The position numbers and the translations under genes were made by a program. Below, one piece after another: positions 2,466 through 28,950 of a DNA stretch of 30,873 nt. The notes under the pieces were generated by a model that saw nothing but the letters and a program-made list of their open reading frames with translations, had not been told where the DNA came from and did no database searches. The stretch spans positions 1 through 30,873 of the IMG/VR virus record IMGVR_UViG_3300026078_000071; one strand, given 5' to 3'. This stretch comes from a virus. Each line of letters begins with the position of its first letter. The stretch's first letter is position 1.

Positions 2466-2692
2466 GCCGACACCACGCGGTAGGCGATGATGTCATAGCC
2501 GCTGCCGTTGTGGACCCAGCCCTTATAATCGGACCTGTCCCAGTCTCCGGCCAACGCCGCAACGCGATTGCTTCCGCGACTGCCGTCCCGATGGAGAACT
2601 TCGACTACCGCTATGATCGGAGTTGGGTTGAAGTCGCCATACCATTCGATCCAGTCGCCAGCTTCTTCTATAGGGTGAGAGTGAGCGGTCAT
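2462..2692 (-). CDS. Conserved-type phage early protein (DIIAYRV motif)
   Basis: Seventy-six residues with the layout WIEWYGDF..., a beta-rich middle (VEVLHRDGSRGS), GDWDRSDY, and the C-terminal DIIAYRVV signature. This pattern is familiar from small proteins in many proteobacterial phages, where the consensus is roughly W-x-x-[WHN]-x-G, then a DV-R-DG strand, then DIIAYRV. Their function is unknown to me. It is coupled by ATGA overlaps in the leftward operon. Confidence 0.7.
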   Translation of the reverse strand: MTAHSHPIEEAGDWIEWYGDFNPTPIIAVVEVLHRDGSRGSNRVAALAGDWDRSDYKGWVHNGSGYDIIAYRVVSA

Positions 2693-2952
2693 GCCGAAGC
2701 CTGCTCAGCTAGGTGGATAAAGGCATCCGGAGAGCAGAAATATCCTTGCCCGTAATCGCGGTGGCTCATCTCGACCGTATCGCCAGCGAGGACAAAGCCA
2801 TCAGCGAACGCAGACATCTTCATCACCGACCGGGCGGCGTCATACGCCCGACCCGGCCAACAGTGCGGCTTAAGTGCACTGGCGAGCATCTCGATCCAGC
2901 TATCCGGATCGTTCTCCGCTACGGCGGCGCGCCCTGAAACATCCTGAACCAT
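2689..2952 (-). CDS. First gene of the leftward early operon, hypothetical
   Basis: An 87-residue protein beginning MVQDVSGRAAVAENDPDSWI. I recognise no family. ATG at 2952 is preceded by a clear GGAGGCGG ribosome site about 5 bases upstream. It is the first gene downstream of PL, whose predicted start point is near 2981, so it should be made earliest and most strongly in the leftward transcript and would be directly repressed by the S24 repressor. Product is mildly acidic, with no membrane segment. Confidence 0.65.
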   Translation of the reverse strand: MVQDVSGRAAVAENDPDSWIEMLASALKPHCWPGRAYDAARSVMKMSAFADGFVLAGDTVEMSHRDYGQGYFCSPDAFIHLAEQASA

Positions 2953-2987
2953 ATTCCGCCTCCAACACTCTGATCGTGTTGAAGGGG

Positions 2988-3017
2988 GTTCTATCCGGTT
3001 TTCGGATTTGCTGTCAA
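2988..3017 (-). promoter_or_regulatory. PL promoter of the leftward early operon
   Basis: On the minus strand a perfect -35 box TTGACA (3012-3017) is followed after 18 bases by TAGAAC (2988-2993), a four-of-six -10 box. The predicted start is near 2981, about 30 bases before the first gene. One palindrome fills the spacer and enters the -10 box, and a second covers the first two bases of the -35 box, as expected for a repressed early promoter. The -35 box is seen directly; the -10 choice is inference. Confidence 0.7.
2992..3008. promoter_or_regulatory. Repressor operator OL1
   Basis: Palindrome with arms ATCCG (2993-2997) and CGGAT (3003-3007) around GTTTT. It lies between the PL -35 and -10 boxes. 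The same arms and 5-base spacing recur at 3016-3032 and 3704-3720, flanking the repressor gene, which is strong evidence for an operator. Binding of the S24 repressor and/or Cro-like protein is inferred. Confidence 0.82.
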
Positions 3018-3032
3018 TCCGTTTTTCGGATT
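3016..3032. promoter_or_regulatory. Repressor operator OL2
   Basis: Perfect palindrome AATCCG-TTTTT-CGGATT. Its centre is 24 bases from that of OL1, slightly over two helical turns, so two dimers could bind on about the same face and cooperate. It overlaps the first two bases of the PL -35 box. Confidence 0.82.
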
Positions 3033-3055
3033 ATTTTCGCAAGGGGTGAAAAACC

Positions 3056-3679
3056 CTAGAGGCCGTCGTCATTGCCGTAGGCAACAACACGCCCAATTAC
3101 CCGATATGGAAGACCGGTGAGCGAGATAGGCTTATGCATTTCGTTATCGGAGACGGGTTCAAGTCTGGCCGGATCGGACGCATACCGTTTGATAGTTACG
3201 TCATCGTCACCATTCTGAACTAGGTAGACGCGGCCTGAATAGAGGTCGGATTGATCTGGATCAATCACAGCCCAGCCGCCTTCAGGAAGCAGCTTGTTCA
3301 TGCTGTCGCCCACTATCTCTACCGCAAAAGCTCTTTTACCGGCCTTCCGTAGGGGAATACTCACTTCACCCGAGGACATCAGGACAGCTTCGTTCCAATT
3401 GCCTGCAGATGCAAGGCCTATTAGCGGCACCCACTGCACGGACGGGGTGTCTTCGATATTAAGGAAGCGCTTCAGGATATCGGCCTCCTGGATAGTCAGC
3501 CGGCGCTTGCCCTTAAAGACGTTCGACATGGCCGATTGCGACGGCATTCCAGCCACGCGTGCCAGCTCAGTCTGCGAAACCTTCTGGCGCCGCGCCTGCT
3601 CCCGGATCGTCTCGACAAGCTCATCTTCCGACATGGGCGGATATTGCCGCATGTGCGAAATGAACGCCTCATCTAACAT
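3056..3679 (-). CDS. CI-like repressor, S24/LexA self-cleaving family
   Basis: An N-terminal HTH (about residues 22-72, with QTELARVAGMPSQSAMSNVFKG as recognition region) is joined to a C-terminal S24 peptidase domain. The domain shows an Ala-Gly cleavage site in LASAG (A92-G93), the catalytic serine in GDSM (S126) and the catalytic lysine in TIKRY (K164). Such repressors hold lysogeny and self-cleave when RecA is activated by DNA damage. I chose ATG 3679 (207 aa) because further upstream in-frame ATGs would put the operator inside the gene; ATG 3652 is an alternative. Neither start has a good ribosome site, so a leaderless mRNA is possible. Divergent from the Cro-like gene and flanked by its presumed operators. 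Confidence 0.93.
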   Translation of the reverse strand: MLDEAFISHMRQYPPMSEDELVETIREQARRQKVSQTELARVAGMPSQSAMSNVFKGKRRLTIQEADILKRFLNIEDTPSVQWVPLIGLASAGNWNEAVLMSSGEVSIPLRKAGKRAFAVEIVGDSMNKLLPEGGWAVIDPDQSDLYSGRVYLVQNGDDDVTIKRYASDPARLEPVSDNEMHKPISLTGLPYRVIGRVVAYGNDDGL

Positions 3680-3696
3680 CGGATAGATCGAGGGGC

Positions 3697-3724
3697 TTGC
3701 GTTTATCCGATTTGCGGATATTAT
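3697..3724 (+). promoter_or_regulatory. PR promoter of the rightward early operon
   Basis: TTGCGT (3697-3702), 16-base spacer, then TATTAT (3719-3724), five of six to the -10 consensus. The OR palindrome fills the spacer and ends on the second base of the -10 box, exactly the geometry of OL1 in PL. Transcription should begin around 3731, immediately at the preferred ATG of the Cro-like gene. The -35 box is weak, so this is a moderate call. Confidence 0.6.
3704..3720. promoter_or_regulatory. Repressor operator OR
   Basis: Perfect palindrome TATCCGATTTGCGGATA, matching OL1 and OL2 in both arms and spacing. It lies in the roughly 50-base divergent region between the repressor and Cro-like genes, and can control both. 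A degenerate half-site CGGATA at 3680-3685, at the repressor start codon, might be a second weak OR site. Confidence 0.82.
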
Positions 3725-3731
3725 GCGGCTC

Positions 3732-3962
3732 ATGGACCCAGTATCAGACATCTTTGATGCCTTTGGCGGAAGCCCGAAGGCGATCTCTGACGCCACCGGC
3801 ATTCCCGTCCAGACGGTCTGCGATTGGCGACGCAAGGGCACACCCAACATTCCGCCGTGGAGGCGCGATGCGGTGCTGGCGGCAATTGAGAACTCCGGCA
3901 AGGCCGTTCAACCCGCGACGCTGGCGTATCTGGGAGCAGAGCGCGCGCAGGCCGCAGCATGA
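3732..3962 (+). CDS. Cro-like HTH regulator
   Basis: A 76-residue protein that is little more than one HTH: DIFDAFGGSPKAISDATGIPVQTVCDWRRKGTPNIPPWRRDAVLAAI. The pattern (PKAISDATG then VCDWRRKG) fits the YdaS/Cro class of phage repressors, which recognise operators and shut off the lysogeny promoter. An in-frame ATG at 3723 would add three residues but overlaps the predicted -10 box; ATG 3732 sits right at the predicted transcription start, so the gene may be leaderless. It is the first gene of the rightward operon and overlaps the next as ATGA. Confidence 0.85.
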   Translation: MDPVSDIFDAFGGSPKAISDATGIPVQTVCDWRRKGTPNIPPWRRDAVLAAIENSGKAVQPATLAYLGAERAQAAA

Positions 3963-4327
3963 GCGTTCTCCGCATCGGCGCGCTGCGCATCCGCTATAGC
4001 TGGGCTGGGGTATCCAAGTGGGGATATTCGCGCATTGAGATAAATGGCTACAGCCTCCTGACCCGACAAAGCGACGGCGCGCTTGGGCTGATCAGCTATC
4101 ATCCGCGTTGGTCCAATACCTGGATTTGGTCGGTTGCTCTGCGGCGATCGACGCCACAGCAATGGACGCGCCTCGGCAACCGAGATTGGCGCAAGCATTT
4201 CGTCCAGCGCTGTTCGCGACGCCGGTCGCAATGGCATGACTACTACCGGCTTCCGTTCGGTCGGACGCTGATCTTTTCCCATCAGGATTATCACGTTGGG
4301 CGTCCTCGCAAGGACATTCCGGCATGA
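3959..4327 (+). CDS. Hypothetical early protein
   Basis: A 122-residue, strongly basic and tryptophan/tyrosine-rich protein (for example RWSNTWIWSVALRR and RRRSQWHDYYRLPFGRTLIF). I do not recognise a family. The start overlaps the Cro-like gene's stop as ATGA and its end overlaps the next small gene in the same way. The basic aromatic composition would suit nucleic-acid contact, but that is only a compositional guess. Confidence 0.65.
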   Translation: MSVLRIGALRIRYSWAGVSKWGYSRIEINGYSLLTRQSDGALGLISYHPRWSNTWIWSVALRRSTPQQWTRLGNRDWRKHFVQRCSRRRSQWHDYYRLPFGRTLIFSHQDYHVGRPRKDIPA

Positions 4328-27965: not shown

Positions 27966-28950
27966 CGGTCTGAACCCACAGCGCCGCTAACAGCATTGGT
28001 GGCGCGACCCATGACCCGAATATCATCAGTGCTGGCGTGAGAAACGCGATGGTAAGGATTGCCGTTTGGTAAGGCGGGCGGTCTTCAGACAGAGCAACGG
28101 CAAAACCGAGGCAGGCGACCGTCATATCGTAATGGTAAGAGTAGGGGGAAATTAGCAGCGTAGCGGTCGCGGCAGTGAATACGTTGAATTTGCGGGTTAG
28201 GAGCAAGATGGCGGCTACTGCAAACGCGATCTGACCGACTAGGCCATAAGCAACCGAAGGCGGCGCAAATTTAGTGTCCTGAAACGTGCTGGACGACTTC
28301 GCTTGATGGAGCATCACATCAATCCAGCGGGACCAGGCTTCAAAGCCAAAGACCAAGCCCGATGCCAGAACGAGGCCCACGCCGATGATCAACGCCGGCA
28401 AAACCGCGCGCCGATTGTTGAAAGCTGCTAGGAATCCGATATGCGGTTTGATCGTCAGGGCGGCTAGCGCCCATTGCTGGCCACTGAAGGCTAACAACCA
28501 CAGGGCTCCAATAAACAGCCCGGTTTGCCCATAAGTGATGCAAACAAGACTGGCAGGTAGGGCCAGCGGAACCCAGTTCGGCACGTTGTTCAAAAACGGC
28601 CGAGCTGCCCACCAGAACAACCCCAACCCAACTATTACCCATAAAGCATATGCCAGAGGGAATGGCAGCGCGCCGAACGGCGCCACCAGGAATAGAGCAT
28701 GAGGCGGGTAGGGGAACGGAACATGGAGATCGAAGCCGTACAGTTGTCGCACGTACGCGGCCAACGCAGTCGGATCGTAAACTGACGCCCCATTTGACCA
28801 CGCGAGCCTGCCTGCGGCGTAGAAAATGCCAAAGTCTCTGTTTTGCAGCGATGTAGAATAGATCAGGTCAAAAGCTCTGGGCAGTGCCCCAAGCGCGCAA
28901 AGCACAACCCAAAAGAACCAAGGCGGTCCCGCACTTTTGCTGCTCTCCAT
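27907..28950 (-). CDS. GT87-type membrane glycosyltransferase
   Basis: From ATG 28950 a polytopic membrane protein of 347 residues with at least eight hydrophobic segments. It shows family DUF2029/GT87 features: RDFGIFYAAGRLAWSNGASVYDP (DF-x-YYxA and YDP motifs), PYPPHALFLVAPFGALPFPLAYALWV, GQTGLFIGALWLL, and IKPHIGF. GT87 enzymes transfer sugar from polyprenyl-phosphate donors at the periplasmic face. It is the only minus-strand gene in the late region and converges onto the last fibre gene, overlapping it by 59 bases. Probably a lysogenic-conversion gene changing host surface sugars. Its start is unsure: a longer frame to 29103 would overlap the first lysis gene. Confidence 0.8.
   Translation of the reverse strand: MESSKSAGPPWFFWVVLCALGALPRAFDLIYSTSLQNRDFGIFYAAGRLAWSNGASVYDPTALAAYVRQLYGFDLHVPFPYPPHALFLVAPFGALPFPLAYALWVIVGLGLFWWAARPFLNNVPNWVPLALPASLVCITYGQTGLFIGALWLLAFSGQQWALAALTIKPHIGFLAAFNNRRAVLPALIIGVGLVLASGLVFGFEAWSRWIDVMLHQAKSSSTFQDTKFAPPSVAYGLVGQIAFAVAAILLLTRKFNVFTAATATLLISPYSYHYDMTVACLGFAVALSEDRPPYQTAILTIAFLTPALMIFGSWVAPPMLLAALWVQTVKGQSLSVLGNRPLASRHS

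Follow-up and report, generated by a model that had tools for sequence, protein, structure and literature searches.

Introduction

In bacteriophage lambda, three operators are found at each of OL and OR, and the repressor mRNA that is transcribed from PRM is leaderless. In a lambda-type switch, CI and Cro bind to the same sites with opposite preference. Smaller switches have been described. The immB regions of PY54, N15, and phiKO2 contain fewer operators at the right promoter; in PY54, the cI and cro mRNAs were shown by RACE to be leaderless, and the single site OR3 is located upstream of the repressor gene, outside of PR, where it is bound by Cro (PMC4488713). The CI-MOR switch of TP901-1 and S. 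aureus phi13 is a small switch with three high-affinity CI operators, all of which are near the divergent promoters; the operator arms are AGTTCAYR and the partner protein is MOR (PMC8516035).

The window analyzed here is a stretch of 30,873 bases that constitutes the entire virus record. Its immunity region shares with lambda a gene for an S24 CI-type repressor between PL and PR, 17-bp dyad operators inside the -35/-10 spacers, a center spacing of approximately 24 bp on the left side, and the assignment of recombination genes to PL and of replication genes to PR. It differs from lambda in that the three plus three operators are replaced by two full operators at PL and one full operator plus one half-site at PR (15 modules), in that the candidate for a leaderless mRNA is cro rather than cI, and in a predicted hairpin that covers the Shine-Dalgarno sequence of the PL leader. 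With PY54 the locus shares the smaller number of operators at the right promoter, and its cro mRNA is probably leaderless as well; the operator arms are unrelated and the PR operator is located within the promoter. With TP901-1 and phi13 it shares the small number of full operators, although the arms, the partner protein, and the placement of the operators are different. The system is ordinary in kind (CI-type operators in a switch of the lambda/PY54 type), its layout of two sites, one site, and a half-site is unusual, and the footprint seen by comparison among relatives is well supported.

Probable Operators and Early Promoters

The operators and promoter elements of the immunity region are the following:

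2992–3008, minus strand: PL-proximal operator, TATCCGGTTTTCGGATT on the plus strand; found at the same place in 15 of 15 modules
3016–3032, minus strand: PL-distal operator, AATCCGTTTTTCGGATT on the plus strand; position kept across modules
3704–3720, plus strand: PR operator, TATCCGATTTGCGGATA; position kept across modules
3012–3017, minus strand: PL -35 element, TTGACA; TTGAC is kept in all modules
2988–2993, minus strand: PL -10 element, TAGAAC; only TA is conserved
3697–3702, plus strand: PR -35 element, TTGCGT, seen in the sequence
3719–3724, plus strand: PR -10 element, TATTAT, seen in the sequence

A previous sequence-only reading of the window had described 17-bp palindromes with AATCCG arms at these three places. 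The palindromes were confirmed at exactly these positions, but the outermost letter is W (T or A), and the arm is thus TATCCG or AATCCG. The exact pattern ATCCG-N5-CGGAT occurs three times in the record, at 2993, 3017, and 3705, always within the immunity region, and a control search of the same 30,873-bp record with the reversed pattern gave 0 matches. In 300 dinucleotide-preserving shuffles, the maximum number of copies of any 5-5-5 palindrome per 1 kb was 2 and never 3. Using a weight matrix that was built from other phages only, without the window, these operators were ranked as the top three sites of the whole record, with scores of 27.6, 25.9, and 23.8 bits. With 16.7 bits, the site at 28433 came next; it was rejected as a fourth operator because it falls within coding sequence.

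The centers of the two PL operators are 24 bp apart, in agreement with the spacing originally assigned to the left pair. The proximal operator fills the PL spacer, and its final TA also forms the beginning of the -10 element. The PR operator likewise occupies its whole spacer and shares its terminal TA with the -10 element. The coordinates confirm the claim that in both promoters an operator ends exactly on the second base of this element. The end of the distal operator overlaps the start of the PL -35 element TTGACA in the window. It reaches the -35 element in most of the related modules, with a gap of 2 bp in L014, L118, and L120 and a larger one in L126. It is possible that the -10 element is instead GATANT, located two bases upstream; the operator would then cover four of its bases, and the argument for occlusion would be unchanged.

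Related Immunity Modules

IMG/VR was searched with the repressor and Cro proteins, which returned L004–L008, L013, and L014, and with a pattern of paired sites 2–26 bp apart, which returned 24 stretches. Three loci (L006, L013, and L014) were recovered through the protein search only, without the site pattern. In the combined searches, a related repressor was found in approximately 15 distinct modules, which do not count as independent events because they are related by descent. One of them is a prophage contig of Novosphingobium rosa NBRC 15208. The repressors in the aligned set are 39–88% identical to that of the window. All of the approximately 15 modules contain two PL sites and one PR site, and the centers of the PL sites are 23–26 bp apart, except in L126, where the spacing is 35 bp. 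The conservation of the PL arms is in part the result of selection, since most of the modules were collected via the PL-pair search. The search pattern did not include the PR site, which thus constitutes independent evidence.

The sequence-only reading had suggested asking whether the sites are confined to the immunity region and had held that a motif frequent in the genome or host would speak against it. For 17 of the 18 module-bearing records that were searched whole, there are exactly three exact matches, and none of them lies outside of the immunity region; in the record of L006 there are two, because its PR site contains one mismatch. The N. rosa genome contains only 14 further matches in approximately 7 Mb, and the centers of these are mostly GC-rich; the proposed objection therefore does not overturn the operator reading. 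The operator centers of the modules are 86% AT.

Single AATCCGNTTTNCGGATT sites were not considered to be informative; they were found in 92 IMG/VR stretches, mostly as lone matches at about the rate expected by chance (a rough estimate). When genome contigs were scanned for pairs of sites, 117 stretches were obtained, in which the spacings were mixed, and among the 80 of these that were returned as loci, a related repressor was found only in the N. rosa prophage. The protein scan of genome contigs found no related protein. L122, L123, and L124 were set aside; the motif is present in these loci and a related repressor is absent by tblastn. No near-identical named phage was found.

Genes of the Immunity Region

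3056–3634, minus strand: S24 CI-type repressor, 192 aa; recognition helix PSQSAMSN
3732–3962, plus strand: Cro-like small HTH protein, 76 aa; ATG 7 nt past the end of the -10 element
2689–2952, minus strand: first gene of the PL operon, 87 aa, no assigned function

The S24 gene sits between the PL and PR operators, as had been noted from the sequence. Its product matches PF00717 (Peptidase_S24) with a score of 59.5 bits (cut-off 23.3) and phrog_4 (repressor) with an E value of 5e-31; the matches of the N-terminus to HTH_3/HTH_31 are below the cut-off, though with E < 1e-3. The modeled repressor has helices at residues 21–28 and 33–40. Its nearest folds are those of lambda CI and LexA, and the nearest solved structure is lambda CI. 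The catalytic dyad, Ser111 and Lys149, is invariant in the aligned repressor set, and the window repressor carries LASAGNW, which contains the Ala-Gly cleavage site. The start codon is most likely the ATG at 3634, which gives a protein of 192 aa, since it is conserved in 15 of 15 modules; an in-frame alternative at 3679 would give 207 aa.

Rightward of the Cro-like gene are an N6/N4 methylase and then a Toprim/AAA primase-helicase, and on the left side there is an ERF recombinase gene that has the orientation of PL. This gene order is lambda-like. The repressor gene is flanked by two divergent early promoters with the same operators, which is the arrangement by which a lambda-type switch is recognized.

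Two observations were made on the variation among these genes. The expected cleavage site is GSASSW, with A-S in place of A-G, in the repressors of L014 (2329–2904, minus strand) and L118 (832–1407, minus strand), and the usual route of SOS induction may not apply to these two phages. In L006, an additional gene for a probable membrane protein of 162 aa with no Pfam match (3621–4109, plus strand) is found between the repressor and PL. The distance from PL to PR ranges from 664 to 1131 bp across the modules, and together with the gene in L006 this indicates that the slot between the repressor and PL holds variable cargo.

Probable Operator Recognition and the PR Half-Site

The recognition helix (residues 33–40) of repressors with ATCCG operators is nearly invariant as PSQSA-SN, with PSNSYVSK in L013. 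Other helices are accompanied by other arms at the same promoter positions: APSAVSML, SFSTVAKL, and TRDAVAKV are found with GTTATG, TTGGCC/TTGTCC, and TGTGCT, respectively. The changed arms in L007, L009, and L010 are still located in the spacer beside TTGAC, and L009 has the 2 + 1 layout despite a repressor that is only 39% identical. The distant S24 repressor of L107/L125, with the helix SQSTVARW, is again found with ATCCG arms. The arms change with the recognition helix, which points to the repressor as the probable ligand.

We conclude, with a probability of roughly 87%, that the CI-type S24 repressor encoded by the phage itself uses the three palindromes as its operators. The Cro-like protein may share them, and it could be the main ligand of one or more of them. 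The sequence-only reading had assigned the sites to the S24 repressor, its Cro partner, or both; the repressor part of this proposal is supported by the recurrence in approximately 15 modules and by the covariation of helix and arm.

There is about an even chance that all three sites are used by both regulators and that, as in lambda, Cro has a preference for the PRM side with the half-site; this would refine rather than exclude the assignment to the repressor. Lambda-type switches generally behave in this way, and the half-site described below is on the side of the repressor promoter. However, half-sites are not bound by the Cro protein of PY54 (PMC4488713), and the present sequence data do not separate Cro from the repressor.

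The half-site is a single element:

3680–3685, minus strand: conserved half-site, CGGATA on the plus strand and TATCCG on the minus strand; on the repressor side of the PR operator

This element had been proposed to be a degenerate second operator. It is conserved, but it is not a full degenerate palindrome: one arm is invariant as CGGAT(A/T), apart from TGGATA in L109, and the second arm is absent in 15 of 15 modules. The half-site is 35 bp from the center of the PR operator in the window and 34 or 35 bp from it in 15 of 15 modules. Compared with the 24–25 bp spacing at PL, a distance of 35 bp is longer by about one turn of the helix, and L126 has the 35-bp spacing at PL as well. In L010, which has TGTGCTN5AGCACA operators, a TGTGCG half-site is found 34 bp from the PR operator, and in L125, which has another S24 repressor, a degenerate site is likewise found at 34 bp. 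The candidates found in L007 and L009 were unconvincing.

We infer from this spacing that a dimer on the full PR site contacts a second dimer on the half-site, on the same face of the helix, and the contact probably serves autoregulation. It is unlikely that the half-site is instead the -10 element of the repressor's own promoter and no protein site at all. The position, approximately 46 nt upstream of the conserved repressor ATG, would suit such an element, but TATCCG is a poor -10 sequence, and the element of L010 has become TGTGCG, matching the arm of that phage's own operators. The odds are balanced that the perfect dyad and an obligatory half-site, placed exactly one helical turn beyond the spacing of the PL pair, form a composite PR operator in which one and a half sites take the role of OR1–OR3, in combination with a leaderless cro and a PL Shine-Dalgarno sequence that is closed by a 5' hairpin, and that this 2 + 1 + half arrangement is kept across operator specificities.

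It is quite improbable that the three sites serve mainly the Cro-like protein, with the S24 repressor bound elsewhere. In favor of this reading, every module has a conserved Cro-like protein, whose gene begins immediately behind the PR operator, and the Cro protein of PY54 binds to one site only (PMC4488713). However, the arms follow the helix of the repressor, even for the distant S24 repressor that is paired with a different type of Cro; in L007 the arms are different although the Cro helix, which was read by eye as PFQTV, is similar; and no other conserved palindrome was seen that the repressor could use. Palindromes that arose by chance or serve a host factor, unrelated to immunity, are scarcely credible. 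Other contigs do contain lone exact sites, at a frequency roughly estimated to be that expected by chance, and unrelated pairs are found in genomes. Here, however, three sites are found within 730 bp with none elsewhere in the record, and the fixed promoter geometry that is kept in approximately 15 modules already refutes this explanation.

Proposed Switch Mechanism

For the three palindromes as repressor operators, the following switch is proposed. In the prophage state, repressor dimers bound between the -35 and -10 elements of PL and of PR would exclude RNA polymerase from both early operons. PL would be occupied by two dimers 24 bp apart, the distal one also lying over the start of the -35 element, and these would probably touch via their C-terminal domains and bind cooperatively. 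At PR, one dimer would bind to the perfect operator and a second probably to the half-site 35 bp away, on the same helix face and beside the repressor's own promoter, resulting in autoregulation. After DNA damage, the repressor would cleave itself upon stimulation by RecA and the switch would be released, although this may not hold for all modules because L014 and L118 lack the Ala-Gly pair.

These results define an operator code and an architecture for an uncharacterized immunity family, for which the one named host here is a sphingomonad, and immunity groups can be read from sequence. With its two sites, one site, and a half-site, the locus is a minimal switch of natural origin on which models of lambda cooperativity and autoregulation can be tested, and the matched repressor helices and operator arms provide a ready test of HTH specificity.

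A Probable Leaderless cro and the PL Leader

Counted from the first base of the -10 element, the distance to the ATG of cro is 12–13 nt in 15 of 15 modules. Transcription normally starts at about that distance from the start of the -10 element, and the cro mRNA is therefore probably leaderless. Transcripts of this kind are common in an alphaproteobacterium (PMC4117421).

The leader of the PL transcript contains one predicted structure:

2956–2987, minus strand: PL leader hairpin, which pairs the Shine-Dalgarno sequence GGAGG (2963–2959)

The PL leader of the window, from the end of the -10 element to the first start codon, folds with -17.9 kcal/mol (z -5.4), and the mean z for 16 PL leaders is -3.5, with L013 as the exception. 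The hairpin is predicted in the window and in L006, L014, L026, L097, L108, L109, L111, L112, L117–L120, and L126. The 5' arm starts directly after the -10 element and the 3' arm is the Shine-Dalgarno sequence; the sequences vary and the pairing is kept. The 5' arms tend to fit their own Shine-Dalgarno arms better, with a mean of -14.8 kcal/mol versus -9.0 kcal/mol with those of other modules, and 0 of 20,000 permutations were as good. Folds that were begun inside the 5' arm were not significant; those that were refolded from the end of the -10 element were. If transcription starts 6–7 nt after the -10 element, part of the 5' arm would be outside of the RNA. The search of Rfam gave no match. 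The PL leader of L010 apparently contains a similar hairpin, GATCTCCTC...GAGGAGATC.

Other Immunity Classes

In L009, the operators are TTGGCCGCNGCGGACAA (2844–2860 and 3573–3622), with two at PL approximately 31 bp apart and one at PR. A second immunity class was observed in L125 (1635–2464), L107 (10430–11250), and L110 (6039–6086), with a different S24 repressor and AATCCGTCAAACGGATT operators. In this class, TTGACA is located between two PR sites, and the ATG of cro again follows directly after the -10 element.
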